33,171 bases of DNA from Sedimentisphaerales bacterium (GCA_030611315.1 JAUWPZ010000028.1:1-33171), one strand, 5' to 3'; counted from the stretch's first letter, positions 9,462 through 32,840 are shown. Made by a program: numbers and translations. Notes: generated from the sequence alone by a model not told the origin.

Positions 9462-9534
9462 GGCGGATAAAATCGATTATCGCAAACGAGTTGTTTCGGA
9501 AACAGATGTTGGAGAAAAACGAAAGGGCCTGAAA

Positions 9535-10440: not shown

Positions 10441-10459
10441 TTCTGGAAAGGGTTCAGAA

Positions 10460-11158: not shown

Positions 11159-11167
11159 GGGCAAAAA

Positions 11168-12592: not shown

Positions 12593-12740
12593 TAGAAGAA
12601 TTGTAAGTTTTGTCGACCTTTGCCCGGTTGGCAAAATTTGAGACCGGACAATTGAAAGCCGGTTTGTTGCAGCCCTTTCGTCAAAGGAGTGTCGGCTTCA
12701 ATCAAATGGTTGGATTGGTTATTTTACAGGAGAATAAACT

Positions 12741-13859: not shown

Positions 13860-13967
13860 CATGCTGAATTCGTCGAGTTTCGGTTTTGGATATGAATGTT
13901 TGGAATAATAGTTTTGGATAATAATTAAAGATTTCAACAATATAGTTTGTTTTTTAAGGAATGTAAT

Positions 13968-15320
13968 ATGAAAAACCGGAAAAAAACAACTAAGCAGCAG
14001 ACAAGGATGTCTCGGCGCGATTTTATAGGGGCCGCTACGGCTGTGGCGGCCTTTACGGTTGTGCCGCGAGGCGTGCTGGGAGGTCCGGGCAATGTCCCAC
14101 CCAGCGAAAAGCTCAATATAGCGGGCGTCGGGGTCGGCGGTATGGGCAAGAGCAACGTCAGGGCATGTAAGGGCGAAAACATTGTTGCGCTCTGTGACGT
14201 GGATGAGAGCTATGCCGGTAAGGTTTTCCAAGAGTATCCCAATGCCAAAAAATGGAGCGATTACCGTAAGATGCTCGACCAGCAAAAAGATATTGACGCG
14301 GTGATTGTGGCCACTCCGGACCATACCCACGCGGTTATTGCTATGGCGGCGATGAAGCGGGGCAAACACGTTTATGTCCAGAAACCGCTGACACGCACGG
14401 TCTATGAGGCTCGTATGCTGACAGAAGCGGCCCGCAAGTACAAAGTCGCCACCCAGATGGGCAACCAGGGCCATTCGGGCGAAGGGGTCCGCCTGATATG
14501 TGAATGGAGCTGGGCCGGCGCCATCGGCCCGGTCCGCGAGGTGCATGCCTGGACCAACAGGCCTGTTTGGCCCCAGGGCATTGATAGGCCACCCGAAACG
14601 CCTGATGTGCCGTCCACGCTGAACTGGGACCTTTGGGTTGGGCCCTCACCGATGAGGCCGTATCACCCGGCTTATTTGCCGTTCAAATGGCGAGGCTGGT
14701 GGGATTTCGGCGGCGGGGCGCTGGCGGATATGGCCTGTCACGTAATCGACCCGGTCTTCTCGGCCCTTAAACTGGGCTATCCAATCACTGTTGAAGCCTG
14801 TGCGACCAAGGTGAATAAAGAAACTTTCCCCCACGCCTCTATCGTGCGTTTCGAGTTCGGCGGCAGGGGCGATATGCCCGCAGTTAAGCTGCACTGGTAT
14901 GACGGCGGTATGAAGCCGGCGCGGCCGGATGCCCTGGAGCCGAACCGCAAGTTGGGACAGGCCAGCAGCAATGTGTTCTTTATCGGCGACAAGGGCGTAT
15001 TGAGGTGTGGCGAGTACGGCGACAGCCCGCGGCTGATACCCGAAAGGAGAATGAAGGAATACAACCGTCCGCCCAAGACCCTTCCAAGGATAGAGGGCAG
15101 TCACGAGCAGAACTGGATAGACGCCTGCAAGGGCGGTGTGCCGGCATGCTCGAACTTCGACTACTCGGGCCCGCTGACCGAAACCGTTGTGATGGGCAAT
15201 CTTTCTCTTCGCCGCTTAGGCAGGAAACTGACGTGGGACGGCCAGAATATGAAGATTACTAACGACGACGAAGCCAACGAATACGTCAACTTGCCGTATC
15301 GCAAGGGCTGGTCGCTTTAG
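13968..15320 (+). CDS. Tat-exported Gfo/Idh/MocA oxidoreductase, tandem copy 1
   Basis: I choose ATG 13968, seven bases after aagga; an upstream TTG at 13947 has no ribosome site. The 450-residue protein has a twin-arginine signal ([16 protein letters not shown] at about 14-29, then [10 protein letters not shown]). A Rossmann motif GVGVGGMG lies at 53-60. The EKP motif reads VQKP (137-140). The C-terminal half contains [30 protein letters not shown] and the catalytic-region histidine in CHVIDP. It is the first of three tandem paralogues (with 15531 and 16945) sharing the same signal type. A 152-bp stretch is nearly identical to the next copy. Substrate unknown; a glycoside or sugar is expected. 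Confidence 0.88.
14490..14641 (+). repeat. Near-identical tract shared with 16050-16201 (copy A)
   Basis: Aligned by eye at a constant offset of 1560 bases, this tract differs from 16050-16201 at five positions in 152, while the coding sequence on either side diverges at once. The sharp borders suggest gene conversion between the tandem oxidoreductase genes. Confidence 0.7.
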
Positions 15321-15372
15321 TGTGGCACGGCCATCTTGGCCGTGTTTTCACGGGCTGGAAGCCCGTGCCACA
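15321..15372. repeat. Cloverleaf-like palindromic repeat element
   Basis: Outer arms tgtggcacgg (15321-15330) and ccgtgccaca (15363-15372) are perfect inverted repeats. They enclose two further perfect 8-bp hairpins, cacggcca/tggccgtg (15326-15333 and 15337-15344) and cacgggct/agcccgtg (15349-15356 and 15360-15367). It begins at the first base after the stop of the preceding gene. The structure is typical of small interspersed palindromic repeats and might also end transcription or stabilise mRNA. Confidence 0.65.
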
Positions 15373-15530
15373 CCAAGATAGCGCTTTAATGAGTTGCTTG
15401 GCTAAACACATACTCTTGCCCGTGTTCTTGTGGTTCGAACCTGATGAGGTCTTTTGTTCTAAAGCTAAGACGAGGGCGAACGATTGGAGATGAAAAGCGC
15501 AGGTTTGGTGTAAATTAGGGAACCTTAATT

Positions 15531-16874
15531 ATGAAAAAAACGAACGTTCTGCAGAAAAGAGTACTTACTCGGCGTGATTTTATTGGCGGCGCTGCTGCCG
15601 CGGCGGCCTTTACGATTGTGCCCCGGCATGTGCTCGGAGGCCCCGGTAATACACCGCCGAGCGAGAAGCTCAACATCGCCGGCATAGGCGTGGGCGGCCA
15701 GGGGGCAAGCGACCTGAGAGGTGTGGACAGTGAAACAATAGTCGCCTTGTGCGACGTGGACTGGTCGCGCGCAGGCGGCACCTTCAGGCGGTATCCCAAC
15801 GCTAAGAAATACAAGGACTACCGCAAAATGCTCGACAAGGAGGAAAAGAACATCGACGCGGTGGTCATTGGTGCACCGGACCACATACACGCACCGGCCT
15901 CAATGGCGGCCATCAAGCGAGGCAAACATGTCTATTGTGAAAAGCCGCTGACTCACTCGGTATATGAGGCCCGCAAAATCGCCGAGGCCGCACGCCGGTA
16001 CAACGTCGCTACACAAATGGGAAATCAGGGTCAGGCATCCGAGGAAACCCGCCTGATATGTGAATGGATCTGGGCCGGCGCCATCGGTCCGGTCCGCGAG
16101 GTGCATGCCTGGACAAATAGGCCTGTTTGGCCCCAGGGCATTGATAGGCCACCCGAGACGCCTGATGTGCCGTCCACGCTGAACTGGGACCTTTGGGTTG
16201 GCCCGGCGCCGCAGCGGCCCTATCATTCCGCCTATGTGCCGTTTAAGTGGCGGGGCTGGTGGGATTTCGGGACCGGAGCGCTCGGTGATATCGGCTGCCA
16301 TCGTATCGACCCTGTCTTCCGGGCACTGAAGCTCGGCCATCCGACGAGCGTGCAGGCGGTATCGACCCTGGTCAACACCGAGTCGTATCCCGCGGCGTCG
16401 ATGGTACGGTACGAGTTCGGCGGCAGAGGCGATATGCCCCCGGTAAAGCTGACCTGGTATGACGGGGGGATGAGGCCTCGCAGGCCCGATGAGCTGGAGG
16501 ACGGTCGGCAATTAGGCACAAACGGCATATTATTCGTTGGCGACAAGGGTAAGATGCTCGAAGCCAGGCTGTTACCTGAGTCGAGGATGAGAGAATACAA
16601 AAAACCACCGGAAATGATACCCCGCTCGCCGGGACATCACCAGGAGTGGATTGACGCCTGCAAGGGCGGTAAGCCTGCTGGCTCGAATTTCCCCGACCAC
16701 GCCGGTCGGCTGGCCGAAGCCGTCCTCCTGGGCAATGTCGCTCTGCGCCCGGAGCTGAGAGAGAAAATGAACCGGACGAAACTGTTGTGGGATGGGCCGA
16801 ATTTGAAGATTACCAATGTTCCCGAAGCCAATCAATTCCTGCAGCGCGAGTATCGCGACGGCTGGACACTGTAA
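15531..16874 (+). CDS. Tat-exported Gfo/Idh/MocA oxidoreductase, tandem copy 2
   Basis: This 447-residue protein starts at an ATG after a weak aggga site, 158 bases beyond the palindromic repeat. The twin-arginine signal is LTRRDFIGGAAAAAAF (12-27) with the cut region near RHVLGG. The Rossmann motif GIGVGGQG is at 51-58. Here the classical EKP motif is intact (CEKP, 136-139), unlike both tandem neighbours. The C-terminal domain has [30 protein letters not shown] and [20 protein letters not shown]. It is highly similar to copy 1, including the near-identical 152-bp tract. Keeping three copies with different EKP motifs suggests different substrates or steps rather than dosage alone. Confidence 0.88.
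   Translation: MKKTNVLQKRVLTRRDFIGGAAAAAAFTIVPRHVLGGPGNTPPSEKLNIAGIGVGGQGASDLRGVDSETIVALCDVDWSRAGGTFRRYPNAKKYKDYRKMLDKEEKNIDAVVIGAPDHIHAPASMAAIKRGKHVYCEKPLTHSVYEARKIAEAARRYNVATQMGNQGQASEETRLICEWIWAGAIGPVREVHAWTNRPVWPQGIDRPPETPDVPSTLNWDLWVGPAPQRPYHSAYVPFKWRGWWDFGTGALGDIGCHRIDPVFRALKLGHPTSVQAVSTLVNTESYPAASMVRYEFGGRGDMPPVKLTWYDGGMRPRRPDELEDGRQLGTNGILFVGDKGKMLEARLLPESRMREYKKPPEMIPRSPGHHQEWIDACKGGKPAGSNFPDHAGRLAEAVLLGNVALRPELREKMNRTKLLWDGPNLKITNVPEANQFLQREYRDGWTL
16050..16201 (+). repeat. Near-identical tract shared with 14490-14641 (copy B)
   Basis: This is the partner of 14490-14641. Five differences in 152 bases were counted by eye. It encodes the segment from LICEW through WDLWVG in both genes. 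Confidence 0.7.
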
Positions 16875-16944
16875 TTACTTCCGTCCGGCTCAAAATAGGG
16901 AGTGCGAAAACCGCCGGGGATGAACACAATTAAGGAGTTTAACC

Positions 16945-18252
16945 GTGAAAAAGAACATGATTACACGTCGGCAGTTTTTGGGCGGCGCCGCTGCGGCCGC
17001 TGCGTTTACCATTGTTCCTCGCCATGTCTTGGGAGGCCCTCGCCATGTCGCGCCGAGCGAGAAGCTCAACATCGCCTGTATCGGTATCGGCGGGATGGGA
17101 GGCTCTGATTCGAGCCAGGTCGGCACGGAAACAATAGTGGCATTATGTGATGTGGATTGGAAACGTGGAGCGGGTGCGTTCAATAAGTACCCCAACGCGA
17201 AAAAATACCGCGATTTCCGAAAGATGCTGGAAAAGGAAAAGAGCGTCGATGCCGTAACGGTATCGACGCCGGATAATACGCATGCAGTCGCGGCAATGAT
17301 GGCGATAAAGATGGGCAAGCATGTCTATTGCCAAAAGCCCCTGGCGCATGACATCTTTGAAGTCCGCCGGCTAACCGAGGCCGCCCGCAAGTATAAGGTG
17401 ATGACGCAGATGGGTATTCAGCTTCACGCGGAGGGCTACCTTCGGCTGGTGGTGGAGATGATTAAATCAGGCGTTATCGGAAAGGTCAGAAGGGTGGATA
17501 TCTGGAGCGGTAAGAATTGGGGCGGCGGTACAAAGCCGACTGATACGCCCCCGGTTCCTGAGACGTTGGACTGGGACCTGTGGCTCGGCCCGGCCCCGTG
17601 GCGGCCCTATCATCCGGTTTATGTTCCTTCCAACTGGCGGCGATGGTGGGATTTCGGGACAGGCACTTTAGGAGATATGGGCTGTCATATAATAGACCCG
17701 GCTTTCTGGGCCCTTGATTTGGGTTATCCGACGAGCGTCGAGGCAAGTCCCGGTGAATTTAACAAAGAGACTTATCCGAAGAAAACCATCGTTAAATGGC
17801 AGTTCCCTGCCCGGGGCCAGTTGCCCCCGATGACGCTGACCTGGTATGACGGCGCCAACAAACCGCCACGCCCGAAAGAGCTTGATGAAGGACGCAATCT
17901 GCCCGGCCAGGGCGGTCTTTATTATGGCGATAAGGGTGTTATTCTTGCCCCGCACGGCGGCGGGCCGAGACTCCTGCCGGAATCGAAAATGAAAGGTTTC
18001 AAGCCGCCCGAGCCGTTCCTGCCGAGGGGCGTTAATCACTGGCAGGAATGGATTAGTGCCTGTAAGGGCGGTCCGAAGCCGCTGGCTGATTTTGACTACG
18101 CCGGACCGCTCACCGAGACCATTTTGCTGGGCAACGTGGCGGCCCTTGCCGGTCGGAAAATAAAGTGGAATGGGCCGAAGCTCAAAGTTGCCGATATGCC
18201 CGAAGCAAACAAATATCTAAAACGCGATTATCGTCAGGGGTGGACCCTGTAG
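16945..18252 (+). CDS. Tat-exported Gfo/Idh/MocA oxidoreductase, tandem copy 3
   Basis: The start is a GTG seven bases after aaggag; an ATG at 16957 is a weaker alternative because it leaves almost no n-region. The 435-residue protein has the Tat signal ITRRQFLGGAAAAAAF (6-21) and IVPRHVLGGP. Its Rossmann motif GIGGMGG is at 47-53, and the EKP motif reads CQKP (129-132). The C-terminal part has LDWDLWLGPAPWRPYHP, WWDFGTGTLGDMGCHIIDP and TLTWYDGANKPPRP, as in copies 1 and 2, but it is the most diverged of the three. The next frame begins immediately after its stop, and the fusion gene 18298-20526 probably shares its transcript. Confidence 0.88.
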   Translation: MKKNMITRRQFLGGAAAAAAFTIVPRHVLGGPRHVAPSEKLNIACIGIGGMGGSDSSQVGTETIVALCDVDWKRGAGAFNKYPNAKKYRDFRKMLEKEKSVDAVTVSTPDNTHAVAAMMAIKMGKHVYCQKPLAHDIFEVRRLTEAARKYKVMTQMGIQLHAEGYLRLVVEMIKSGVIGKVRRVDIWSGKNWGGGTKPTDTPPVPETLDWDLWLGPAPWRPYHPVYVPSNWRRWWDFGTGTLGDMGCHIIDPAFWALDLGYPTSVEASPGEFNKETYPKKTIVKWQFPARGQLPPMTLTWYDGANKPPRPKELDEGRNLPGQGGLYYGDKGVILAPHGGGPRLLPESKMKGFKPPEPFLPRGVNHWQEWISACKGGPKPLADFDYAGPLTETILLGNVAALAGRKIKWNGPKLKVADMPEANKYLKRDYRQGWTL

Positions 18253-18297
18253 ATGAAAACCGCCAATTTTAACTTGAATTTGCAGGAGAAAATGAAA

Positions 18298-20526
18298 ATG
18301 AACAAACCTACAAAGCTTACCTGTGTATTGTTGGTGCTTGTATTGTGTATCTGCTCTCTGTCTCAAACTGCTCGGGCCGCCGAGAAGGAGAGCCCCGTTA
18401 GAAATTTTGCAGCGGCCGATGTAATACACCAGGGCGGTATTTCTAACGGGGAGAACTGGAAGCTGGGCATGCAGGCGTACAGCTTTAATCGCTTTACGTT
18501 TTACGAGGCGGTGGACAAGAACAAGGCGCTCGGCATGCGCTACATCGAGGCTTATCCCGGTCAAAAGCTGAGCAGGGAAAAACCCGATATCAAGACCAGC
18601 CACGATATGCCCCCGACCGAAAAGAAGGAAATGCTGCAAAAGCTCCGCCAGGCGGGCGTCAAGCTGATAAATTACGGCGTGGTCAAGCTGCCGAACAACG
18701 AGGCCGAGGCTCGAAAGGTCTTTAACTTTGCCCGCGAGATGGGGATTGAGACGATTGTCTCCGAGCCGCCGGAGGACGCCTTCGATTTGCTCGAGAAATT
18801 GTGCGAGGAGTTCAAGATTAACGTGGCCATCCACAATCATCCCAAGCCGTCGCGCTACTGGGACCCCGATACGGTGCTCAAGGTCTGCAAGGGACGCAGC
18901 AAGCGAATCGGGGCCTGCGCCGATACCGGCCATTGGATGCGCTCCGGCGTCAATCCTGTCGAGGCGATAAAGAAGCTCGGCGCCGCCGGTCGCATCATCA
19001 GTCTGCACTTTAAGGACCTCAATGAATTTGGCGTTCGCGGTGCGCACGACGTGATTTGGGGCACGGGCAAGGCGAATGTTGATGCGATTTTGGCTGAGCT
19101 TGCCCGCCAGAAATTCAAGGGCGTTTTTTCAATCGAGTATGAGCATAACTGGCTCAACTCGATGCCTGAAATCGCCGGTTGTGTCTCATATTTTGAGCGC
19201 ACCGCGGCTAAACTGGGCCAGACAGACTGGAAATGGCTCTTCAACGGCAAGGACCTGAAAGGCTGGGATGGTGACCCGCGATTGTGGTCGGTCAAAGACG
19301 GCGTTATTCGCGGAGAAACTACGGAGGAAAACCCCGCTAGCGGCAACACGTTCCTTGTCTGGCGGAATGGCAAGCTCAAAGACTTCGAGTTGAAACTCAG
19401 GTTCCGTATCCAGAACGGCAATTCCGGAGTGCAGTATCGCAGCAAGGAAGTCAGCAAATGGGTTATCAGCGGCTATCAGGCCGAGGTGCAGAACGCCCCG
19501 GGAAAGGTCGGTTTCCTCTACCATGAAAAGGGACGCGGCTGGCTCGTCAACGTCGGTGATATTATGGAGATAGATAAAGACGGCAAAAAGAATGTCATCG
19601 GTAATGTTTCCGATAAAGATGCCTTGATAAAGGCCGGCTATTACAACGACAAGGACTGGAACGAGTACCACATTATCGCCCAGGGCAATCACCTCAAGCA
19701 CTACCTCAATGGCTATCCCACGATGGAGCTGATTGACAACGACCGCGTTACCAATCCGGACGACCCCAGGGACACTAAAGGCGCCGCGAAGGAAGGCCTG
19801 CTGGCATTGCAGATTCACGCCGGGCCGCCGATGGTCGTTGAGTTCAAGGACATCCGCATAAAAGAGTTGAAATCGAAATACGGTGATGGCCGGGTCATCT
19901 TTAACGGCAAAGACCTGAAGAATGACTGGGGGGTCAAGGGAGACGACGAAAAGAGCAAATGGGAGGTCGGCATCGCCGCGATATCGCCGGATGACCCCAA
20001 AAAGCTGGTGAATAAGGGCGGCCAGGGCGCGATGATTAACCTCGCCGGCCGTCATGGCGATAGTATCGATATCTTCTCCAGAGAAAAGTTCGGCGACTGC
20101 CGAATCGAGCTGGAAGTAATGGTGCCGCAGGGTTCCAATTCCGGCATCTACGTTATGGGCGAGTATGAGATTCAGGTGCTGGACAGTTGGGGTAGAGCAA
20201 AGATGAGCGGCGGTGATATGGGTGCGGTTTACGGCGCCGCTCCGCCTCGCGTCAACGCCTGCAAAAAGCCCGGCGAATGGCAAAAGTACGTGATTGAATA
20301 CCAGGCCCCCAGATTTGACGCCGGCGGAAAAAAAATCGAGGGCGCCAACGCCAAACTAATCAAGGTGGAGCTCAACGGCCAGGTGCTGCATGAGAACGTC
20401 GAAATCAAAGGCCCGACGGGCAGCGCACTGACCGGCAAAGAAGCGCCGACCGGCCCGATTATGTTCCAGGGCAACCACGGCCCCGTGGCGTATCGCAATA
20501 TTATTGTGAAGCCTTTGGTCGAGTAA
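18298..20526 (+). CDS. Exported three-domain protein: TIM barrel plus two PF06439 domains
   Basis: I choose ATG 18298, nine bases after aggag, over an in-frame ATG at 18253, because it gives a compact signal peptide (KLTCVLLVLVLCICSL, cut near ARA-AE). The product is 742 residues. Residues about 55-305 are a xylose-isomerase-like TIM barrel: MQAYSFNRFTFYEAVD, VAIHNHPKPSRYWDPD, GACADTGHWMRSG, SLHFKDLNEFG and FSIEYEHNW supply the usual Asp/His/Glu metal-site positions. Residues about 310-525 are a first PF06439 domain (WLFNGKDLKGWDGDPRLW, NGNSGVQYRSKE). Residues about 530-740 are a second (VIFNGKDLKNDWGVKGDD, GSNSGIYVMGEYEIQVLDSW, NHGPVAYRNIIVKPL). A lyase/isomerase-type barrel joined to two keto-glycoside-cleaving modules suggests channelling of successive steps outside the cytoplasm. 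This is inference; each domain call is firm. Confidence 0.88.
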   Translation: MNKPTKLTCVLLVLVLCICSLSQTARAAEKESPVRNFAAADVIHQGGISNGENWKLGMQAYSFNRFTFYEAVDKNKALGMRYIEAYPGQKLSREKPDIKTSHDMPPTEKKEMLQKLRQAGVKLINYGVVKLPNNEAEARKVFNFAREMGIETIVSEPPEDAFDLLEKLCEEFKINVAIHNHPKPSRYWDPDTVLKVCKGRSKRIGACADTGHWMRSGVNPVEAIKKLGAAGRIISLHFKDLNEFGVRGAHDVIWGTGKANVDAILAELARQKFKGVFSIEYEHNWLNSMPEIAGCVSYFERTAAKLGQTDWKWLFNGKDLKGWDGDPRLWSVKDGVIRGETTEENPASGNTFLVWRNGKLKDFELKLRFRIQNGNSGVQYRSKEVSKWVISGYQAEVQNAPGKVGFLYHEKGRGWLVNVGDIMEIDKDGKKNVIGNVSDKDALIKAGYYNDKDWNEYHIIAQGNHLKHYLNGYPTMELIDNDRVTNPDDPRDTKGAAKEGLLALQIHAGPPMVVEFKDIRIKELKSKYGDGRVIFNGKDLKNDWGVKGDDEKSKWEVGIAAISPDDPKKLVNKGGQGAMINLAGRHGDSIDIFSREKFGDCRIELEVMVPQGSNSGIYVMGEYEIQVLDSWGRAKMSGGDMGAVYGAAPPRVNACKKPGEWQKYVIEYQAPRFDAGGKKIEGANAKLIKVELNGQVLHENVEIKGPTGSALTGKEAPTGPIMFQGNHGPVAYRNIIVKPLVE

Positions 20527-20751: not shown

Positions 20752-22107
20752 ATGAGTAATCAAAAGACCAATAACAAAATCGACAGGCGCAGTTTTCTGC
20801 GCTCTACGGCAGCGGCAGGAGCGTCTCTGGCATTTTCGCCGGCGGCATTTGGGGCAAGTGCCGGCAAGGCGGACGACATTAACATAGCCCTGCTCGGCTG
20901 CGGGGCTCAGGGGATGGTCCTGATGGAAGCCGCTCGCAGGATTCCCGGCATCCGTTTCAAGGCTGTCTGCGATATCTGGACGGCCTACAATCAAAGGCGT
21001 GTTTCGCGCATCCTCAAGGCCTACAAGCACGAACACAATACGTATGTGGATTACCAGGAGATGCTTGCTAAAGAAAAGGACCTTGACGCAGTCATAATTG
21101 CTACGCCTGATTTCCGGCACTCTGAGCACACAGTTGCCTGCTTGAAGGCCGGGCTGCATGTCTATTGCGAAAAGGAGATGTCCAACACTCTCGATGGCGC
21201 CAAAAAGATGGCCGTGGCCGCAAAGGAAACCGGAAAGCTGCTGCAGATAGGCCATCAGCGCCGCAGCAATCCACGTTACAGGTACGTTTATGAAAAGCTC
21301 GTGTCAGGAGCCAAGATTCTTGGCCGAATCACCACAATCAACGGCCAGTGGAACCGCAGCAAAGCCGCCTGCGAGGACCTCGGCTGGCCCCCAAAGGCCG
21401 AACTCGACCAGGCCACTCTGGAGAAGTACGGTTTCAAATCGATGCAGCAGTTTAAAAACTGGCGATGGTACAAGGGCATGGGCGGCGGCCCGATCGTTGA
21501 CCTCGGTTCGCACCAGATTGATATTTATAGCTGGTTCCTCGGAGCCAATCCCAGGTCTGTTATGGCCAGCGGCGGCATCGACTACTGGAAAGGCCGCGAC
21601 TGGTACGACAATGTTATGGCCGTCTTCGAGTATGAAACTAAGGAAGGAACCGCCAGGGCCTTCTACCAGACCATTACGACCAACAGCAGCAGAGGGTATT
21701 TCGAAAACTTCATGGGCGATGAAGGCTCACTGGAAATCTCGGAAGCATCCGGATACGGCAGTCTTTACCGCGAGGCCTGGGTGCCCGCGGAGAACTGGGA
21801 CAAATGGGTCAAGATGGGCTACATCAAAGAACCCGAACAGCCGGAAGAAGAAAAGCCCGCCGGCGACGCCGTGCTCGATGTACGCGAGTCGCCCGAGCCG
21901 CCGAGTTACGACATACCGGTTACTATGGAAGGCAAGCCTTATCACCAGCCGCACCTCGAGAATTTCTTCGATGCGATTAAAGGCAAGGCAAAACTCAATT
22001 GTCCCGCAGAAATCGGATACGAAACGGCTGTTACCGTACTTAAAGTCAACGATGCGGTGGCCGCAGGGCGTAAGCTGGAGTTCAAACCTGAGGACTTTGA
22101 GGTCTGA
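20752..22107 (+). CDS. Tat-exported Gfo/Idh/MocA oxidoreductase with EKE variant
   Basis: The 451-residue protein has a twin-arginine signal (IDRRSFLRSTAAAGASLAF at 10-28, cut near FGA). The Rossmann motif is LLGCGAQG (47-54). The EKP motif reads CEKE (139-142), with the proline lost. The C-terminal domain has QFKNWRWYKGMGGGPIVDLG, then SHQIDIYSWFLG. Near 360-385 there is an acidic insert (EPEQPEEEKPAGDAV) not seen in the other copies. It forms a different subgroup from the 13968-18252 trio. It has its own promoter and possible operator. The cytochrome gene follows after a short gap, so the oxidoreductase and electron-transfer proteins are probably co-transcribed. Confidence 0.87.
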   Translation: MSNQKTNNKIDRRSFLRSTAAAGASLAFSPAAFGASAGKADDINIALLGCGAQGMVLMEAARRIPGIRFKAVCDIWTAYNQRRVSRILKAYKHEHNTYVDYQEMLAKEKDLDAVIIATPDFRHSEHTVACLKAGLHVYCEKEMSNTLDGAKKMAVAAKETGKLLQIGHQRRSNPRYRYVYEKLVSGAKILGRITTINGQWNRSKAACEDLGWPPKAELDQATLEKYGFKSMQQFKNWRWYKGMGGGPIVDLGSHQIDIYSWFLGANPRSVMASGGIDYWKGRDWYDNVMAVFEYETKEGTARAFYQTITTNSSRGYFENFMGDEGSLEISEASGYGSLYREAWVPAENWDKWVKMGYIKEPEQPEEEKPAGDAVLDVRESPEPPSYDIPVTMEGKPYHQPHLENFFDAIKGKAKLNCPAEIGYETAVTVLKVNDAVAAGRKLEFKPEDFEV

Positions 22108-22184
22108 ATACTGCATTTAAGCGGGCGGTTTGTATAATGTTTGCCTGCCGGCACCAATACATTTGGAAAAGGATTGACAATAAA

Positions 22185-24065
22185 GTGAGCAAAGGATTGG
22201 TAATAACAGGCGTTTTGTCCCTGATGGTATTGGCCTTGCCTGTTGCCGCCGAGGCGGAAGGAAAAAAGCTTGGCGATGAAAGTGACGGCAGCCGAGCACA
22301 CTCGATACACGTAATCCCTCTGCTTACCGAGGAAGGGGACAGAATTGCTCCCGATGACGACCCGCTTTTGCCCTTTTCGATGCGCCAAACCTGCGGCGAA
22401 TGCCACAGCTATCAGATAATTGGTAATGGCTGGCATTTTAACGCCCCCGACGCCAACGCTGCGCCCGGCCGACCGGGTCAGCCGTCGATTTTCTCTGACG
22501 CCCGCACCGGCACTCAGATTCCTCTTTCATACCGCCCCTGGCCGGGGACATACAAACCCGAGCAGCTCGGTCTGACGCCGCGGCAGTTCACCAGGCGTTT
22601 CGGCAGTCATACGCCGGGCGGCGGCGCAGGAGAGCTTGACACGCCTCTCGATGATGAGATTATGCGCGAGATGGTATCGGGCAAGCTGGAAATCAACTGC
22701 CTGAGCTGCCACAACGCCGACCCCGCCCACAACCAGGGCGATTTCGCCGGCCAGATTGCCCGCGAGAATTTCCGCTGGGCCGGCGCCGCCACAACTGGAA
22801 TTGCTACAGCGAGCGGCTCGGCCAGAGATATGCCCGACACCTATGACCCGGTGATGCCGGACCCGCTGGACGACCCCAAGCTGGTTCCGCCGGCTATAAG
22901 CTACAAACAGGGCATATTTGACAGCAAAAAGTGGGTATTTTTTGACATCAAGAGAGAAGTGCCGAGCCATCGCTGCTACTTCTGCCATTCCAATCTATAC
23001 ATTGAGAACGAACACACCGAGAAATGGTCCACCGACGAGGATATTCACATGACCGCCGGCCTGAGCTGCGTGGATTGCCATCGTAACGGCATTGACCATA
23101 ATACCGTCAGGGGATATGAAGGCGAGGCATCTGTCTCGAAAAATCACATAGCCGCCGAATCGTCGTGCGAAGGTTGTCATCTCGGCGAGAAATCATCGGC
23201 AGAGCCTGTAGCGGGCCGATTCGGCGCCCCCGTGCCGCAGCATCCGGGCATTCCCCCGGCACACTTTGAGAGGCTCACCTGCACCGCCTGCCACAGCGGC
23301 CCGTGGCCCGGAGAAGAGACTGTTCTGACTAAAACATCCCGGGCCCATCGCCTGGGGACGATTGGCGTCAATAAATCGCATGAGGCGCTGCCTCACGTCA
23401 TCTCTCCCGTCTTCGCCACGCAGGGCGATGGCAAAATTGCTCCTCATAAGCTTCTATGGCCTGCTTTCTGGGGCAGTCTCAAGGATGGTCAGGTTGAGCC
23501 GGTTGCCTTTGACGCTGTCGGAAAAATCCTCGGCGAGACTCTGGCTGATTTGAAGCGGCTGCGTTCGGGGGACTGGCCTGCTTTCACCGCCGAACACATC
23601 ACCGGGGGCTTGAAGACCCTTGCATCGGATAAATCAATAGAAGGGACGCCCGTTTATATCAGCGGCGGCAAACTCCACAAACTGGATGATTCGGGGGCAT
23701 TGAGCGTCGAAGACCACGCAGCGGCCGAGCCGTATCTCTGGCCCATCGCCCATGATGTCAGGCCGGCTGCCCAGGCACTGGGCATCCGCTATTGCACGGA
23801 TTGCCATGCCACAGATGCGCCGTTCTTCTTCGGTAATGTCGCCGTCGATTCGCCGGTTGTCTCCGAACGCCAGGACGTCAAAAAAATGTATGATTTCCAG
23901 GATATCGATGTTACCTACGCCAAGGCGTTTGCTTTTTCGTTCGTATTTCGTCCGTGGATGAAGGCAGTCGCTCTTTGTTCGTGTGCGGTTCTGGCTGCCG
24001 TATTGTTGTTATATGTACTAAAGGCCCTGGCTTTTGTTGCAAAATTGCTGGGCGAGGAAGATTAG
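22185..24065 (+). CDS. Seven-heme cytochrome c with C-terminal membrane anchor
   Basis: I prefer the GTG at 22185 (626 residues), which follows aaaagga and leads straight into a signal peptide (LVITGVLSLMVLALPVAAEA). An in-frame ATG at 22137 gives 16 more residues but has no ribosome site. Seven CxxCH heme-binding motifs are visible; numbered from 22137 they are CGECH 86, CLSCH 188, CYFCH 280, CVDCH 311, CEGCH 344, CTACH 382 and CTDCH 553. A transmembrane segment near 609-631 (VALCSCAVLAAVLLLYVL) anchors the C-terminus, leaving the hemes outside the cytoplasm. The b-type membrane gene follows after 28 bases. Together they look like a quinone-linked electron-transfer module. The partner is not known. 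Confidence 0.88.
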   Translation: MSKGLVITGVLSLMVLALPVAAEAEGKKLGDESDGSRAHSIHVIPLLTEEGDRIAPDDDPLLPFSMRQTCGECHSYQIIGNGWHFNAPDANAAPGRPGQPSIFSDARTGTQIPLSYRPWPGTYKPEQLGLTPRQFTRRFGSHTPGGGAGELDTPLDDEIMREMVSGKLEINCLSCHNADPAHNQGDFAGQIARENFRWAGAATTGIATASGSARDMPDTYDPVMPDPLDDPKLVPPAISYKQGIFDSKKWVFFDIKREVPSHRCYFCHSNLYIENEHTEKWSTDEDIHMTAGLSCVDCHRNGIDHNTVRGYEGEASVSKNHIAAESSCEGCHLGEKSSAEPVAGRFGAPVPQHPGIPPAHFERLTCTACHSGPWPGEETVLTKTSRAHRLGTIGVNKSHEALPHVISPVFATQGDGKIAPHKLLWPAFWGSLKDGQVEPVAFDAVGKILGETLADLKRLRSGDWPAFTAEHITGGLKTLASDKSIEGTPVYISGGKLHKLDDSGALSVEDHAAAEPYLWPIAHDVRPAAQALGIRYCTDCHATDAPFFFGNVAVDSPVVSERQDVKKMYDFQDIDVTYAKAFAFSFVFRPWMKAVALCSCAVLAAVLLLYVLKALAFVAKLLGEED

Positions 24066-24093
24066 TAGCTCTGATTGAGAATGTGCAGGTATT

Positions 24094-24711
24094 ATGTTTA
24101 AGATTATTACGATTGTTGGTTTTGCAGTTACGCTCGCGGGTATTGTTTTGCATCGTCTAATTAGTCCCTCCGGCCCACGAAAAGCCAAAAAAACGCAGTC
24201 CGACAAAGGCAAATCAAGCCTCCTGCTTGTTTTAAGAAGGCTGGTATATCTGCTGGCGCTGCTTAGCTTTGTGGTTTTGGTGATTACCGGGTTTTATCCG
24301 CTGCTCGTTCTGGGCGAGCATATTTCCGGCTACCTGGTTATGCTGCATGCTACTTTCGCGCCGGTTTTTGCCGTTTGCCTGGCGGTCCTCGCTTTGATGT
24401 GGGCAGACAAGTGCCGTATCGACTACAACGAATATCCGGTGATGCGGCGTATCGTCCGGCTTCTTACCGGGACCAAAGCCGCCGATGAGGAAGCTCCCTG
24501 CAAAAATTCCGGCCCCGGACAGAAAATAGCTTTTTGGCTGATTATCCTGCTGGCTTTGCCGTTAATCTTGTCGATTGTTGTCATCCTGCTGGGGTATTCG
24601 GGTACTCATCAGCAGGAATGGTTCTTGGCTGCGCATCGCTATATAGCCTTGGTTTTCTCCTTGATTGCAATTATTCATACTTACCTGCTGACCCGAATGC
24701 AGGCCAGGTAA
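24094..24711 (+). CDS. Integral membrane b-type cytochrome-like subunit
   Basis: The 205-residue protein has five predicted membrane helices, at about 3-21, 44-73, 80-103, 145-168 and 177-199. Histidines in or next to helices (76, 85, 181 and 195, the last two 14 residues apart in one helix) are what a di-heme b-type cytochrome of the FdnI/cytochrome b561-like fold would use. That assignment rests on topology and histidine spacing, not on a clear signature. It lies 28 bases after the heptaheme cytochrome gene, so the two likely form a complex that passes electrons between the quinone pool and the periplasmic hemes. The direction of flow cannot be told from sequence. Confidence 0.7.
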   Translation: MFKIITIVGFAVTLAGIVLHRLISPSGPRKAKKTQSDKGKSSLLLVLRRLVYLLALLSFVVLVITGFYPLLVLGEHISGYLVMLHATFAPVFAVCLAVLALMWADKCRIDYNEYPVMRRIVRLLTGTKAADEEAPCKNSGPGQKIAFWLIILLALPLILSIVVILLGYSGTHQQEWFLAAHRYIALVFSLIAIIHTYLLTRMQAR

Positions 24712-24801: not shown

Positions 24802-25908
24802 ATGGATAAGGTAAAAGTAGCCGTGGTTGGGCTTGGTTTTGGTGCGGAATTCATTCCTCTTTATCAAAAACACCCCGATACTGAGTGTTATGCGATTTGC
24901 CAGAGAACCGAGGACCACCTCAATGAGATTGGCGACCAGTTTGGAATTGAAAGACGGTTTACGAAGTTCGAGGACCTCTTGGGCATCGATGAATTGGACG
25001 CTATCCACGTTGTCTCGCCGATTGCCGACCATGCCTGGATGACGTTGGCCTCTTTGAACGCCGGCAAACACGCCGCCTGCACGGTCCCGATGGCGACTAC
25101 CACGGAGGACTGTCTTGCAATTGCCGAGGCGCGGAAAAAGTCCGGCAAGGTGTATATGATGATGGAAACCGCCGTTTATACGCGGGAATTCCTCTATGCA
25201 AAAGAGCTGGTCGAGACTGGTAAACTGGGCAAGATTCAGTTCCTGAGAGGCTCACATCAGCAGAATATGGGCCTGCCGGGCTGGCCTGATTACTGGTACG
25301 GCTTTCCGCCTATGCACTATGCGACCCATGCCGTCAGCCCGCTGCTTTGCCTTGCGCAAAAGCAGGCCGAATCCCTTGTCTGCCACGGCTCAGGCCAAAT
25401 CAGCGAGGAATACGCCAGGAAATACGGCTCGCCCTTTGCTGTCGAGACCGCTATCCTCAAGCTCGCCGATTCGGACCTTGCCTGTGAGGTTACCAGGTCG
25501 CTTTTCGATACGATTCGACAGTACCGGGAGAGCTTCGACGTCTATGGCACGAAGCTTTCATTCGAGTGGGAGCAGATAGCCGGCGAAGGGCCGATAATAT
25601 ATTCCGGTTATGAGGATGCCGAAAGAGTAGAGGCCCCCGATTATGGGCATTTGCTGCCTAAAGAGATAGCTCCATTCACCGGGCACGGCGTCTATGACGA
25701 TGAGCACGAGCATACTTCCTTTATCCAGGGCGCCGGTCACGGCGGCTCGCATCCGCATCTGGCCCATGAGTTCATTCGCGCGATTATCGAAGAGCGTCAA
25801 TCCGCTGTCGATGCGAATACGGCGGCGAACTGGACAATGGTGGGAATCTGCGCACACGAATCCGCACTGAACGACGGCAAAAGAATCAAGCTCCCACAGC
25901 CGGATTAG
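24802..25908 (+). CDS. Cytosolic Gfo/Idh/MocA-like protein lacking the EKP motif
   Basis: The 368-residue protein starts at an ATG behind ggaaggag and has no signal peptide; it begins directly with the Rossmann strand (KVKVAVVGLGFGAEF, 3-17). The dehydrogenase fold is clear (HVVSPIADHAWMTLASLNAGK), but where relatives have EKP this protein has TVPMA (94-98). The catalytically important lysine is therefore missing. The C-terminal part is rich in histidine (DDEHEHTSF, HGGSHPHLAHEF). It may use a different mechanism, bind a sugar or cofactor without redox chemistry, or be a divergent enzyme. It is the only family member in the window without a Tat signal, so it could act on the product after import. 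A short hairpin (gtctcttcgagagac, 24767-24781) precedes its ribosome site. Confidence 0.82.
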   Translation: MDKVKVAVVGLGFGAEFIPLYQKHPDTECYAICQRTEDHLNEIGDQFGIERRFTKFEDLLGIDELDAIHVVSPIADHAWMTLASLNAGKHAACTVPMATTTEDCLAIAEARKKSGKVYMMMETAVYTREFLYAKELVETGKLGKIQFLRGSHQQNMGLPGWPDYWYGFPPMHYATHAVSPLLCLAQKQAESLVCHGSGQISEEYARKYGSPFAVETAILKLADSDLACEVTRSLFDTIRQYRESFDVYGTKLSFEWEQIAGEGPIIYSGYEDAERVEAPDYGHLLPKEIAPFTGHGVYDDEHEHTSFIQGAGHGGSHPHLAHEFIRAIIEERQSAVDANTAANWTMVGICAHESALNDGKRIKLPQPD

Positions 25909-26049: not shown

Positions 26050-27489
26050 ATGAGTAATGGAGTACTGCCGGATTATGTAAAAATGGCAAAGCCGAATCCG
26101 ATTCAAAACAGGGCTCCCTGGTACAAGAACACCGCCCCCACGTACGCAGGTATTTTCCTCTGGTTCGTGTTCTGGAGCCAGGCGCCGACCGGCGGCGAGG
26201 CGGCGGGCGCGCCCGGCGGTGTGTTGGGCCATGGTATTGGCGCGGCCATTCTTGGGCTGATTATTGCTGCGCTGCTGTGCCACTTTCTGTTCTATCTGGT
26301 TCCGGGGTTGCTTGGTATGAAGACGGGCCTGCCTCTTTACGTCATCGGGACATCTACTTACGGCGCGCAAGGCGGATTCCTGATGCCCGGTTTTCTGATG
26401 GGCGTGCTTCAGTTCGGCTGGCTTGGCGTTAATTCGTTTTTCGCATCGAAGGCCATTGCGTCTTTCTTCGGCCCCAGCGAGGTTACTTGGAAGATTATTG
26501 CTGTGATCTGGGCGGCTGTTGCTGCGTTCGTCGGACTCAAGGGTATTCAGTACGTTGCTAAAGTCGCTACGTTCCTTCCTTTGATCCCCTTGGCAATTCT
26601 TGCCATTATGCTCGGGAAAACTATCGGCGGGATCGGCGATTTCAATGCGGAAGCTCTGGTAACCGCAGGGACCGTTGAGGGAGGCGCAACGAGCGGTTTG
26701 AGCTTCCTTGGTGTGATATTCTTGAGCATAACGTTTGTGGTTGGTTTCTTCGCGACGGCGGGCGCGGCCGGCGTTGATTTCGGCATGAACAGTAAGGACG
26801 CCAAAGACGTTCAGATGGGCGGCTTGGTCGGAATCGCTCTGGCTACTATCGTCGCAGCCGGTGCAGCCATTCTGATCGCTGCGGGCAACTTTGGCGCAAC
26901 GGGCAATTACGCGATGAACCCAGCTTCAGCCGATTTCATGGGAGGCTTGATGGGTTCTGTCGGTACAGGCAAAGTCATGGCTCTGTTGCTGGCTGTTGCA
27001 GCTTTCCCACCGGCATGCTTCTCGTCGTTCATCGCGGCTAACAGTTTCAAGACAACGCTTCCAAAAGTGAACCCGTTTATTTCTGTCGGTATTGGCGCCG
27101 GTATCAGCATTCTTTTGGCCATCACCGGTTTGGCGGGCAAGGCTGGCGATGTCTTCACAGTGATCGGTGCATCTTTCGGCCCCGTTTGCGGAGCTATGAT
27201 GGTTGATTACCTGATGGCTGGTAAGAAGTGGGCAGGTCCGCGGTCCGGATTTAACCCGGCCGGATGGATTTCCTGGGTGGTTGGCTTTATTGTTGGAATG
27301 CTGCCGTTGGTGAGCAGTGTGAAGATTCCGGCTGCACCGCTGGCGGCTTTCGCTGTGGGTGCCGTGCTCTATTATATCCTTGCCAAGGCGGGGCTTGAGT
27401 CAAAAGTGCTCGAAATGACCCCGGCTCCGGCTCCAGCTCCTGCAGAGAGTGCACCGCAGGAAGCACCAGGCGGAGAGAAGAGCGAATAA
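26050..27489 (+). CDS. NCS1-type (cytosine permease-like) transporter
   Basis: The 479-residue protein starts at an ATG behind taggag. It has about 12 hydrophobic helices and resembles the CodB branch of the nucleobase:cation symporter-1 family: KTGLPLYVIGTSTYGAQG and GVLQFGWLGVNSFFASKA near helices 2-3, and GPVCGAMMVDYLMAGKKW near helix 10. Known NCS1 members import cytosine, allantoin, hydantoins, thiamine and similar compounds. A sugar substrate would be unusual, so its role in this locus is open. The C-terminus has an odd proline/alanine/glutamate tail (PAPAPAPAESAPQEAPGG). It has its own promoter and a strong terminator (27539-27575), so it appears to be a single-gene unit. Confidence 0.8.
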   Translation: MSNGVLPDYVKMAKPNPIQNRAPWYKNTAPTYAGIFLWFVFWSQAPTGGEAAGAPGGVLGHGIGAAILGLIIAALLCHFLFYLVPGLLGMKTGLPLYVIGTSTYGAQGGFLMPGFLMGVLQFGWLGVNSFFASKAIASFFGPSEVTWKIIAVIWAAVAAFVGLKGIQYVAKVATFLPLIPLAILAIMLGKTIGGIGDFNAEALVTAGTVEGGATSGLSFLGVIFLSITFVVGFFATAGAAGVDFGMNSKDAKDVQMGGLVGIALATIVAAGAAILIAAGNFGATGNYAMNPASADFMGGLMGSVGTGKVMALLLAVAAFPPACFSSFIAANSFKTTLPKVNPFISVGIGAGISILLAITGLAGKAGDVFTVIGASFGPVCGAMMVDYLMAGKKWAGPRSGFNPAGWISWVVGFIVGMLPLVSSVKIPAAPLAAFAVGAVLYYILAKAGLESKVLEMTPAPAPAPAESAPQEAPGGEKSE

Positions 27490-29314: not shown

Positions 29315-30199
29315 ATGAGAAAAGATTTTGGTTCAATTATCAAAGTTTGTGTATTGGTGCTGTTTGCTGTTTGTGTATGTTTTGTAGCTTCCTGCAAGGA
29401 GTCTTCTCCGCCGGATAAGGAGCCTGATACTCCAACTGTCAAAACCCCGGACGAGTCAAAAATTCCCGATGAGTCGAAAACCCCCGATGAGTCGAAAACC
29501 CCCGATGAATCGAAAACCCCCGATGAATCGAAAACCCCGGACGAGTCTAAAACTCCGGATGAGTCTAAGACGCCAGACGAAACAAAAGCTGCTGACGGCC
29601 CCAAAATGGTGCCTATCGACATCAAGATGCCAAAACCCATGTTCGTAGGTACGCCTCAGGATACACGGGTGCCCAACCTCGAAAAACCCACCGGCAAGTC
29701 TCGTCCGCCGTTTCTGGCCCCGGAGGGAACTAAAAATGTCGCACTCGAAAAACCAATCTCCGGCAGCGACGAAGAGCCAATCATCGGCGAAATCGAAATG
29801 ATAACCGATGGTGACAAGGAAGCCGCCGACGGCAGCTATGTCGAGTTGGGTCCGTTCACCCAGCAAATCACTATAGACCTCGAGGCCGAGCACAATATCT
29901 ACGCGATTGTTGTATGGCATTACCATAAGCAGGCCTGGGTTTATTATGATGTGGTGGTACAGGTTGCCGATGACGCTGATTTCATAACGAATGTCAAGAC
30001 GCTGTTCAATAACGACATCGACAATTCATCCGGTCTGGGTGTCGGCAAGGATATGCACTATAGCGAAACCAATGAGGGCAAGCTTATCGACGCCAAGGGC
30101 GTCAATGCCCGTTATGTTCGCTTTTACAGCAACGGCAATACCGCCAATGACTTGAATCACTATATCGAAGTGGAAATTTACGGCAAGCCGCTTAAATGA
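29315..30199 (+). CDS. Lipoprotein with PDESKT repeats and discoidin-like C-terminal domain
   Basis: The 294-residue protein starts at an ATG behind aaagga. A hydrophobic stretch (VCVLVLFAVCVCFVA) ends in V-A-S-C, so Cys27 would be lipidated. Residues 44-91 are eight hexapeptide units of the form TPDESK (one begins with I, the last reads TPDETK), a flexible charged stalk. Residues about 140-294 are beta-rich, with NVALEKPISGSDEEP at the start and ARYVRFYSNGN then YIEVEIYGKPLK at the end. That pattern is typical of F5/8 type C (discoidin-like) carbohydrate-binding domains; I infer the fold from the pattern. The stop overlaps the next start (ATGA), so translation of the two is likely coupled. 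It may place a sugar-binding module at the cell surface. Confidence 0.78.
   Translation: MRKDFGSIIKVCVLVLFAVCVCFVASCKESSPPDKEPDTPTVKTPDESKIPDESKTPDESKTPDESKTPDESKTPDESKTPDESKTPDETKAADGPKMVPIDIKMPKPMFVGTPQDTRVPNLEKPTGKSRPPFLAPEGTKNVALEKPISGSDEEPIIGEIEMITDGDKEAADGSYVELGPFTQQITIDLEAEHNIYAIVVWHYHKQAWVYYDVVVQVADDADFITNVKTLFNNDIDNSSGLGVGKDMHYSETNEGKLIDAKGVNARYVRFYSNGNTANDLNHYIEVEIYGKPLK
29444..29587 (+). repeat. Tandem 18-bp coding repeat, eight units
   Basis: Eight 18-bp units encode the TPDESK stalk of the lipoprotein. The middle units are almost identical at the DNA level and the outer ones diverge, which suggests expansion by slippage. Confidence 0.85.
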
Positions 30200-31857
30200 A
30201 ATGGCCCAAAAAATGTTGCGTGCTTATCCTGGCCGCGACAGTTGTTGCGTTTTCGCTGTGCCTACCACGGCTCCGGCAGCGCCCGATGCACGGCGACGAG
30301 GCGGTTCACGCCGTCAAGTTCGGGGACCTGCTGGAGAGGGGCGACTATACTTACGACCCGAACGAGTTCCACGGCCCGATGCTTAACTATCTGACTTTGG
30401 TCCCTGCCTGGTTGGCCTCAGCTGAGACATTGACCGAGATAAGCGAATTCACCCTGCGCATTGTGCCTGTCTTCTTCGCCGTGCTGATGGTGTTGGGGCT
30501 TTTGCTGCTGGTCGATGGTCTGGGGAGGGCCGCCGCGGTTTGTGCCGCTCTATTGACCGCCCTCTCACCGGCTATGGTTTTTTACAGCCGGTATTACATT
30601 CAGGAAATGCTCCTGGTGAGTTTCACTTTCGGTGTGATTGTTTTCGGGTATCGTTATACTAAGAGCGAAAACATCCTATGGGCAATATTGACGGGAGTGT
30701 GTCTGGGCCTTGTGCACGCGACCAAGGAAACGTGCATCATTGCTTTTGGTTCAATTTTTCTGGCCATTGTGCTTGTGCTGATGCTGCGGTGCCAACAAGA
30801 CGGCCATCGAGGTTTTATCAAAACCCTCAAAACGATAAAAGGCTCGCATTTTATTGCCGGTCTTTTGGCTGCTATGGTAGTCTCCGTGCTGTTTTTCACA
30901 TCATTTTTCGACAATCCACGGGGAATCCTCGATTCGGTTCTGACTTATGGAACCTACTTCGACCGGGCTAGCCAAAACGAAATACATCAGCATCCCTGGT
31001 ATTATTACCTCAAAATGCTTCTCTTTTTCAAGTATGGCGAGGGGCCTGTCTGGAGTGAAGCATTAATCGTTTTTCTTGCTGTGGTCGGCTTCATCGTTGC
31101 GATGATAAGAAAGGGCATATCCGCTGTCGATTTTCACTTGCTCAGGTTCATCGCCTTTTATACGCTCACAATGACTATTATCTATTCCGTCATCCGGTAC
31201 AAGACTCCCTGGTGTATGCTGGGATTTCTGCACGGCATGATTCTGCTGGCGGGCGTAGGGGCCGTGGCGCTGGTAAAGCTCGTGCCGAAAGTTGTGCCGC
31301 GCTTGATTGTTGTCGGCTTGTTGATTGCAGCTTCGGCTCACTTGGGCTTCCAGGCGTATCGGGCGAGTTTCGTATCCTATGCCGACAGCCGTAATCCGTA
31401 TGTCTATGCACATCCGACGACGGATGTTTTGACAGTAGCTCGGCAGACGGAAGAGATGGCTGAGGTACTCAAACGGTTGGCCGAGGAAGAGCCGAACGAT
31501 GTCGAGATGCATATTCAGGTCATCTGTCCGGGGCACGATTATTGGCCGCTGCCCTGGTATCTGCGCCGAATCGAAAAAGGCGCCGTCAGATGGCGCGATA
31601 TTGTGGCTGATGACGTACCGGCTGCGTCTATCATTATTGCTTCTCCGGATATGGAACAGGAGCTTCTGAGAAAGTTATACGAATTGCCGCCGCCGGGAAA
31701 AAGGAATCTATATGTGCCTTTGTTCGATACTGATATGTATTTGCGCCCGAAAGTGGAACTGCGAGGTTATGTAAGGAAGGACCTTTGGGACCGCTCCGTG
31801 AATAGAGAAGTACCGGACGTCGTCGATTCAATAACCGGAAAAAAAAACGAAAAATGA
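30196..31857 (+). CDS. Agl23-like (TIGR03663) membrane protein, PMT/GT39-type fold
   Basis: The 553-residue protein overlaps the lipoprotein stop by four bases. The N-terminus has one hydrophobic helix and then RPMHGDEAVHAVK, with the Asp34-Glu35 pair typical of the first periplasmic loop of C-type (PMT/ArnT-like) glycosyltransferases. Then come FHGPMLNYL, SPAMVFYSRYYIQEMLL (124-140), about ten membrane helices up to residue 400, and a soluble C-terminal part. This matches the 'flippase activity-associated protein Agl23' family, named for genes near polysaccharide flippases and not for a proven reaction. Use of a lipid-linked sugar donor is the likely chemistry. Its operon partners are a putative sugar-binding lipoprotein and an ApbE flavin transferase. 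Confidence 0.78.
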   Translation: MKWPKKCCVLILAATVVAFSLCLPRLRQRPMHGDEAVHAVKFGDLLERGDYTYDPNEFHGPMLNYLTLVPAWLASAETLTEISEFTLRIVPVFFAVLMVLGLLLLVDGLGRAAAVCAALLTALSPAMVFYSRYYIQEMLLVSFTFGVIVFGYRYTKSENILWAILTGVCLGLVHATKETCIIAFGSIFLAIVLVLMLRCQQDGHRGFIKTLKTIKGSHFIAGLLAAMVVSVLFFTSFFDNPRGILDSVLTYGTYFDRASQNEIHQHPWYYYLKMLLFFKYGEGPVWSEALIVFLAVVGFIVAMIRKGISAVDFHLLRFIAFYTLTMTIIYSVIRYKTPWCMLGFLHGMILLAGVGAVALVKLVPKVVPRLIVVGLLIAASAHLGFQAYRASFVSYADSRNPYVYAHPTTDVLTVARQTEEMAEVLKRLAEEEPNDVEMHIQVICPGHDYWPLPWYLRRIEKGAVRWRDIVADDVPAASIIIASPDMEQELLRKLYELPPPGKRNLYVPLFDTDMYLRPKVELRGYVRKDLWDRSVNREVPDVVDSITGKKNEK

Positions 31858-32840
31858 CCATGCCCAAAAAACCGGAGACTTGTTTTGTCCGGAGCGATTG
31901 CCGTTCAATTGACGGGATGTTGCGTTATTCCCATGAGGCAATGGCAACGACCTTTGAGGTCATCATCGTGCATGAGGATGGCCGCTATGCCCGGCAGGCC
32001 GCCGCCGCCGCATTCAGTGAGCTTGACCGGCTCGAAGGCGAGCTTAGCCGATTCATCGAAAACAGCGATATCTCCCGGCTCAACAACCTTCCTGCCAATC
32101 ATCCGCTGCTGCTTGGTTTGGCCGCGTTCGAGTGCCTCCAGCTCAGCGCCGGGTTGTATGGTGAAACCAGCGGAGCTTTTGATATTACTATCGGTTCTCT
32201 GTTGGCGTGCTGGCGCGGCGACGATGGGACAAGTCGTACGCCCAGCGAGGAACAGTTGAACCTTGCTCGTCAGCTTACCGGCATGGGCCTTCTCAAGCTG
32301 GATGAAGCCGAACATACGGTCGAGCTGCTCAAAAGCCCGGTGCACGTTGACCTCGGCGGGATAGGCAAAGGCTACGCCGTTGACCGGATGGCTGAGTTGC
32401 TGCGCGAGTGGAGTATTGATATTGCTTTGGTCTCCGGGGGGTATAGTTCGGTTTTGGCTCTTGATGGGCCGCCCGGTAAAAAGGGCTGGCCGCTGACGTT
32501 GAGCAATCCGCGCGACCGCAAAGAGACGCTGGTTCGTACTAATTTGCAGGGCCGGGCACTGAGCGGCTCAGGTATGGAGAAGGGCCGGCATATAATCGAC
32601 CCGCGCACCGCTCGGCCGGTCGAGGGCAAGCTCACAGCTTGGTCCTCGGCCCCGGATGCTGCGACGGCAGATGCCCTTTCAACCGCTTTTATGGTGATGA
32701 GCCCGGAGCAAATCAAACAATACTGCCTGCGACATCCGGATGTGCTGGCTATGATTATAGTCCAGGAAAAAGACAAAGAAGGGGCCGAGAAAGAGAAGAT
32801 TTTGCATTTCGGTCCCTGGAAAAAAGAAGAACTGCTTTGA
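31854..32840 (+). CDS. apbE: FAD:protein FMN transferase (ApbE family)
   Basis: The 328-residue protein begins at an ATG that overlaps the previous stop by four bases; a second ATG lies two codons in. It shows the ApbE (PF02424) signatures: MATTFEVII near 30-38, GAFDITIGSLLACW at 107-120, VDLGGIGKGYAVD at 165-177, HIIDPRT at 246-252 and DAATADALSTAFMV at 268-281, the last being a region that binds Mg2+ and FAD. ApbE transfers FMN from FAD onto a Thr/Ser of target proteins, often subunits of Rnf, Nqr or other membrane electron-transfer complexes. No target gene is seen in the window. There is no obvious signal peptide or lipobox, although many family members are exported. An 8-bp inverted repeat (ctggaaaa 32816-32823, ttttccag 32841-32848) spans the stop codon. 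Confidence 0.9.
   Translation: MTMPKKPETCFVRSDCRSIDGMLRYSHEAMATTFEVIIVHEDGRYARQAAAAAFSELDRLEGELSRFIENSDISRLNNLPANHPLLLGLAAFECLQLSAGLYGETSGAFDITIGSLLACWRGDDGTSRTPSEEQLNLARQLTGMGLLKLDEAEHTVELLKSPVHVDLGGIGKGYAVDRMAELLREWSIDIALVSGGYSSVLALDGPPGKKGWPLTLSNPRDRKETLVRTNLQGRALSGSGMEKGRHIIDPRTARPVEGKLTAWSSAPDAATADALSTAFMVMSPEQIKQYCLRHPDVLAMIIVQEKDKEGAEKEKILHFGPWKKEELL

Follow-up and report, generated by a model that had tools for sequence, protein, structure and literature searches.

The stretch of DNA analyzed here, referred to as the window, comprises 33,171 nucleotides from a Sedimentisphaerales bacterium (GCA_030611315.1 JAUWPZ010000028.1:1-33171), and the feature under study, at positions 20752-24711, consists of three consecutive open reading frames on the plus strand that are separated by short gaps. 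They encode proteins of 451, 642, and 205 amino acids and form one operon for a Tat-type (twin-arginine) Gfo/Idh oxidoreductase, a heptaheme cytochrome c, and an FdnI-like cytochrome b, named TatGfo, cyt7, and cytb in the following.

20752..22107, plus strand: TatGfo, a Tat-type Gfo/Idh/MocA oxidoreductase and proposed partner enzyme of the cytochrome (PF01408, 8e-19, and C-terminal Gfo domains).
22137..24065, plus strand: cyt7, a heptaheme cytochrome c with a signal peptide and a C-terminal membrane helix (seven CxxCH motifs; PF14522, Cytochrome_C7, above the cut-off).
24094..24711, plus strand: cytb, an FdnI/b561-like membrane cytochrome b, probably with one heme (PF01292, Ni_hydr_CYTB; match to the FdnI profile).

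The reading frames, their domains, the seven CxxCH motifs, and the Tat motif bear out the initial annotation, which had predicted a heptaheme cytochrome and a b-type subunit encoded with a Tat-exported oxidoreductase. It had also placed the cytochrome gene 77 bases after that of the oxidoreductase. This distance holds if cyt7 starts at a GTG at 22185, which was probably the start chosen there, but not from the first ATG, which lies 29 bases past the TatGfo stop. The GTG is a likely alternative start and is better placed for the signal peptide.

TatGfo carries the Tat-type motif RRSFLR, of which R12, R13, and F15 are invariant in 32 homologues. The glycines of the GxGxxG motif (G49/G51/G54) and H254 are likewise invariant, and K141 and D250 are conserved in more than 90% of these sequences. 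Judged by its sequence, the protein has the twin arginines of a Tat substrate, and its score against the Pfam TAT_signal profile (21.2 bits) is slightly below the cut-off of 22.7. The structural model, with a predicted local distance difference test score (pLDDT) of 87, matched the fold of Gfo enzymes with a Z score of 38.8 (3q2k), and the structural matches include sugar 3-dehydrogenases, NAD-dependent glycosidases, and the solved glucose-fructose oxidoreductase (GFOR). TatGfo is a Gfo/Idh/MocA protein, having the Rossmann GxGxxG, the EK-motif lysine, the C-terminal-domain histidine, and the Gfo fold. An assignment to the BT_2158 glycoside 3-dehydrogenases (NF058561) was rejected, with 83 bits against a cut-off of 750.

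In cyt7, exactly seven CxxCH motifs are found, at residues 86, 188, 280, 311, 344, 382, and 553, whereas shuffling of its residues in 20,000 trials never gave more than two. The model (mean pLDDT 84) contains a signal-like N-terminal helix and one C-terminal helix. In the homologue alignment, seven histidine residues outside the CxxCH motifs are invariant. As this number equals that of the hemes, bis-His ligation of all seven c hemes fits, which suggests that cyt7 is an electron relay more likely than a catalyst. The nearest solved fold is the Shewanella octaheme protein 1sp3, with a Z score of 8.3 over 309 residues and 2.2 for the next entry, although a Z score near 8 can reflect a common arrangement; Foldseek alone gave no useful match. 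Membership of cyt7 in the octaheme tetrathionate reductases (TIGR04315) was rejected, since it scored 19.5 bits against a cut-off of 375 and has seven hemes instead of eight, and a TIGR04315 profile search of the relatives yielded only short matches below threshold. The likeness in fold to 1sp3 is retained, but cyt7 differs from that enzyme by its seven hemes, its membrane anchor, and its bis-His-compatible set of histidine residues. In the single-contig genome G001, cyt7 occurs in two distant pieces (L087 and L118), from an inversion or an assembly error.

The third protein, cytb, scored 34.0 bits against PF01292 (prokaryotic cytochrome b561; cut-off 30.1), and its profile matched FdnI, the gamma subunit of formate dehydrogenase-N (1kqf_C), at 1.5e-9. 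Residues H85 and H181 align with FdnI H57 and H155 and constitute the only conserved histidine pair; there is no histidine at the position of FdnI H18, and many members have an extra N-terminal helix. With only this one pair conserved, cytb is predicted to be probably mono-heme. The di-heme-type membrane partner of the initial annotation, corresponding to a di-heme FdnI/b561-type subunit, was therefore discarded, the second histidine pair being absent. At five loci (L098, L102, L116, L109, and L095), cyt7 and cytb are naturally fused.

The conservation of the gene pair was assessed in 61 related genomes, in 392 genomes of the phylum at an E value of 0.001, and at ten additional cyt7 loci from a wider contig search, which include Omnitrophota and Sumerlaeota. 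cyt7 is present in 36 of the 61 relatives. The phylum sample gave matches in 51 of 392 genomes, many of them weak and local, and about 32 were counted as cyt7 in the co-occurrence table. A TatGfo homologue lies one to two genes upstream of cyt7 on the same strand at 44 of about 58 assessable loci, from Planctomycetota, Omnitrophota, and Sumerlaeota; contigs ending at cyt7 were left out, and G110 was counted from coordinates. At L100 and L101 an ApbE gene stands between the two. Among the relatives, 34 genomes have both genes, 2 only cyt7, 4 only TatGfo, and 21 neither (Fisher p 2e-10), and in the phylum sample the corresponding numbers are 14, 18, 3, and 356 (p 1.6e-14), p-values that are indicative, since the genomes are related and the Fisher test overstates their independence. 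Gfo presence was scored on at most 27 candidates per genome for the relatives and on at most 4 for the phylum sample, so that a few absences may be false. Two tandem TatGfo-type genes precede cyt7 at L073, L085, and L116.

The window genome gave 53 matches to Gfo domains. In a phylogenetic tree, the TatGfo proteins, whether or not a cytochrome gene is their neighbor, all stand apart from the six other Gfo proteins of the window that were included, and the Gfo beside cyt7 is a member of this single TatGfo clade. Chance adjacency arising from abundant Gfo genes is ruled out by clade, gene order, and co-occurrence. The initial annotation had proposed gene-neighborhood conservation as a check, and the upstream position of TatGfo, kept in numerous genera and in three phyla, its co-occurrence with cyt7, and the replacement of the cytochrome by other modules described below all came out in its favor. 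A functional link of TatGfo to an electron-transfer module is thus well supported, and TatGfo and cyt7 are probably redox-coupled. No published report of the pairing was found in the literature on Gfo/MocA proteins, cytochromes, and 3-keto enzymes, with most subscription journals outside the coverage.

The genes surrounding the three reading frames are the following.

13947..20526, plus strand: upstream co-directional genes, with three BT_2158-like Gfo proteins and an isomerase/3-keto-disaccharide hydrolase fusion.
13947, 15531, and 16945, plus strand: the BT_2158-like Gfo proteins, related to glycoside 3-dehydrogenase.
18253, plus strand: the isomerase/3-keto-disaccharide hydrolase fusion.
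24802..25908, plus strand: a cytosolic Gfo/Idh protein without signal peptide; relatives at the same operon position are 81-89% identical.
26050..27489, plus strand: an NCS1-like permease, replaced in other lineages by an MFS transporter.
Starting at 27685: a further Gfo in the operon, between the permease and the F5/8C lipoprotein.
29315..30199, plus strand: a lipoprotein-like protein with an F5/8C-type (galactose-binding-like) domain.
30196..31857, plus strand: a TIGR03663 (PMT-like, 'Agl23') membrane protein, recurrent in the operon.
31854..32840, plus strand: an ApbE-type FMN transferase that has no signal peptide and recurs in the operon.

The three upstream Gfo proteins reached 453-598 bits against NF058561 (BT_2158 glycoside 3-dehydrogenase; cut-off 750) and are thus related to that family but below its cut-off. 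Relatives of the upstream genes also lie upstream in most family-level relatives. Genes for glycoside 3-dehydrogenase-like enzymes and for 3-keto hydrolases thus precede the three-gene unit both here and in the majority of close relatives.

In four related genomes (G003, G034, G004, and G022), TatGfo is present but cyt7 is missing. In G003 (L131), an unrelated eight-heme cytochrome (L131:6512-7621) comes directly after TatGfo and ahead of ApbE. In G034 (L134:3422-9283), NqrD/NqrE-like (PF02508), NqrF-like, and NqrB/RnfD-like genes follow TatGfo in one operon, and an FMN-binding domain (DGITGAS) is fused to a domain that shares 43% identity with the F5/8C protein of the window. G022 has an MFS-like transporter after TatGfo. 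In the more distant G187, also without cyt7, a weakly MauE-like membrane protein precedes TatGfo, F5/8C, PMT, and ApbE genes.

The recurrent ApbE gene and the FMN-binding subunit of G034 suggest, at the level of sequence, a flavin intermediate between NAD(H) and heme. ApbE lacks a signal peptide in the window and in most family relatives. The flavinylation motif [ST]GA[ST] is absent or sporadic in the operon families and present only in the variant G034, and the idea that the neighboring ApbE flavinylates one of the operon proteins was for now rejected, since this motif is not conserved. A second, membrane-anchored ApbE is encoded on C161 (L127). The recurrent apbE and, in G034, the NqrB/D/E/F-like genes and the FMN_bind protein resemble ApbE-linked flavinylated NQR/RNF-like systems (PMC8238504, PMC11334425), which differ from the window operon in that the latter has no conserved flavinylation motif. 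The main texts of these two papers mention neither MocA nor Planctomycetes.

From the parts, their gene order, and their conservation, which are read from the sequences, we infer electron transfer from TatGfo to the cytochrome. TatGfo would hold NAD(H) tightly and exchange hydride with a sugar, a sugar derivative, or a 3-keto sugar outside the cytoplasm, cyt7 would recycle the enzyme, and the electrons would pass to the membrane via cytb. The transporter and the cytosolic Gfo encoded downstream could import and reduce the oxidized product. One envelope redox unit of TatGfo, cyt7, and cytb is supported by the gene order over three phyla, the co-occurrence, the single clade, the cyt7-cytb fusions, the replacement by other redox modules, the seven non-motif histidine residues, and the 3-keto genes upstream. 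The 3-oxidation enzymes upstream and the transporter and cytosolic Gfo downstream favor the oxidative direction, from sugar to cytochrome to membrane, and a unit working in this way has slightly less than an even chance of being correct.

The opposite direction is favored by a fermentative lifestyle and by the NQR-like variant. Cytosolic electrons, from NADH via NQR, from quinol, or from an NQR-like complex, would then pass through cytb and cyt7 of the same unit to TatGfo, and a keto sugar would be reduced outside as the electron sink of a fermenter. The order Sedimentisphaerales has been described as strictly fermentative and without a respiratory chain (PMC11266412), and the close relative locus L006 is assigned to it. 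Nearly all relatives lack terminal oxidases: COX1 was found in 1 of the 61 and a full-length cytochrome bd oxidase in 1, with partial bd-like matches in four genomes. Moreover, the window genome encodes NQR and RNF complexes, variant G034 has an NqrF-like NADH-oxidizing subunit, and the nearest solved fold of cyt7 is a reductase-type octaheme protein. On the other hand, the upstream 3-keto pathway genes begin with oxidation, b subunits of the FdnI type commonly work with dehydrogenases, and electron transfer from quinol to a keto sugar is roughly uphill. Reverse flow appears somewhat unlikely. Because NQR and RNF are encoded, a quinone pool is possible in the window organism; the genes of the futalosine menaquinone pathway are absent from the window-family genomes, and the classical pathway was not searched for. 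At L157 and L158 of the window genome, a complete-looking NQR lies beside hydrogenase-like genes, and RNF forms a separate cluster.

The proposal of the initial annotation that sugar-derived electrons pass directly to the respiratory chain is upheld as far as the association of TatGfo with a cytochrome is concerned, whereas the respiratory chain itself is doubtful, given the rarity of clear oxidases and the fermentative character of the order. Rather than an oxygen or nitrate respiratory chain, the Gfo/Idh nicotinoprotein and the heptaheme cytochrome might provide strict fermenters with a sugar-based redox loop or a sink for electrons outside the cell, in which the membrane module (heptaheme plus b, octaheme, or NQR-like) can be exchanged, an idea that is tentative.

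Besides the relatedness of the sampled genomes, several points weigh against a TatGfo-cytochrome redox unit or its respiratory destination. A shared operon does not demonstrate electron transfer, and the tree distances of Gfo and cyt7 correlate (r 0.81) no more strongly than is seen with other genes of the operon. It would be unusual for electrons to pass from NADH to heme with no flavin in between, and cytb lacks a counterpart of the FdnI heme ligand on the cytoplasmic side. The relatives without clear terminal oxidases and the window family without futalosine genes weaken a respiratory destination. At nine distant cyt7 loci (L098, L102, L105-L108, and L110-L112), an FGE-sulfatase-domain gene occupies the Gfo position. 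An occurrence of the cytochrome pair beside nitrite or sulfur enzymes with no link to sugars, which the initial annotation had named as contrary to its proposal, was not seen in the main clade. At L105-L108 and L110-L112, ApbE and a distant Gfo are divergent and adjoin the FGE-sulfatase gene.

In G004 (L132), TatGfo, permease, F5, PMT, and ApbE genes follow one another without any cytochrome gene, and several paralogues of TatGfo occur on their own. Together with the other partner of the distant cyt7 homologues, this agrees with a cytochrome pair that is a general electron-transfer unit, co-regulated in a sugar operon without direct exchange, and a TatGfo that is redox-neutral like GFOR or the NAD-dependent glycosidases. 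Gfo enzymes of this type with bound NAD are known, and the fold is common to solved GFOR and NAD-dependent glycosidases. Such an arrangement is nevertheless improbable in view of the Gfo gene directly upstream across three phyla, the co-occurrence in genomes, and the replacement by two other redox modules.

The proposed redox-coupled unit has partial counterparts among known systems. C3 oxidation of a sugar or glycoside is linked to cytochrome c in LacABC of Caulobacter and in glucoside 3-dehydrogenase of Agrobacterium, and LacABC is a membrane-bound enzyme of the periplasm encoded near DUF1080 hydrolases (PMC9007349, PMC9915066). No FAD dehydrogenase family was found among the window proteins scanned, which sets the window apart from the LacABC type. 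The Agrobacterium enzyme, and presumably also the LacABC dehydrogenase, is FAD-dependent with a mono-heme cytochrome, whereas the window encodes an NAD-type Gfo/Idh protein and a seven-heme cytochrome. GFOR of Zymomonas, which is Tat-exported and keeps NADP bound, and aldose-aldose oxidoreductase of Caulobacter have the Gfo fold of TatGfo, but unlike in the scheme proposed for TatGfo their cofactor is recycled by a second sugar, with no cytochrome partner.

The arrangement, found in anaerobic Planctomycetes and a small number of relatives, suggests a route, not studied so far, by which electrons could move between extracellular sugars and the membrane. Planctomycetes encode many exported Gfo/Idh enzymes, for which an electron acceptor is generally not known; a conserved cytochrome partner, if true, would give a defined protein pair, and multiheme cytochromes would then carry electrons in the envelope of bacteria described as strict fermenters.

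Further upstream in the window, positions 3669-13859 hold more DUF6807, ThuA, HEAT, isomerase, and 3-keto-hydrolase genes, making up a large sugar-degradation cluster, and the F5/8C lipoprotein (29315-30199) contains a repeated PDESKT linker.

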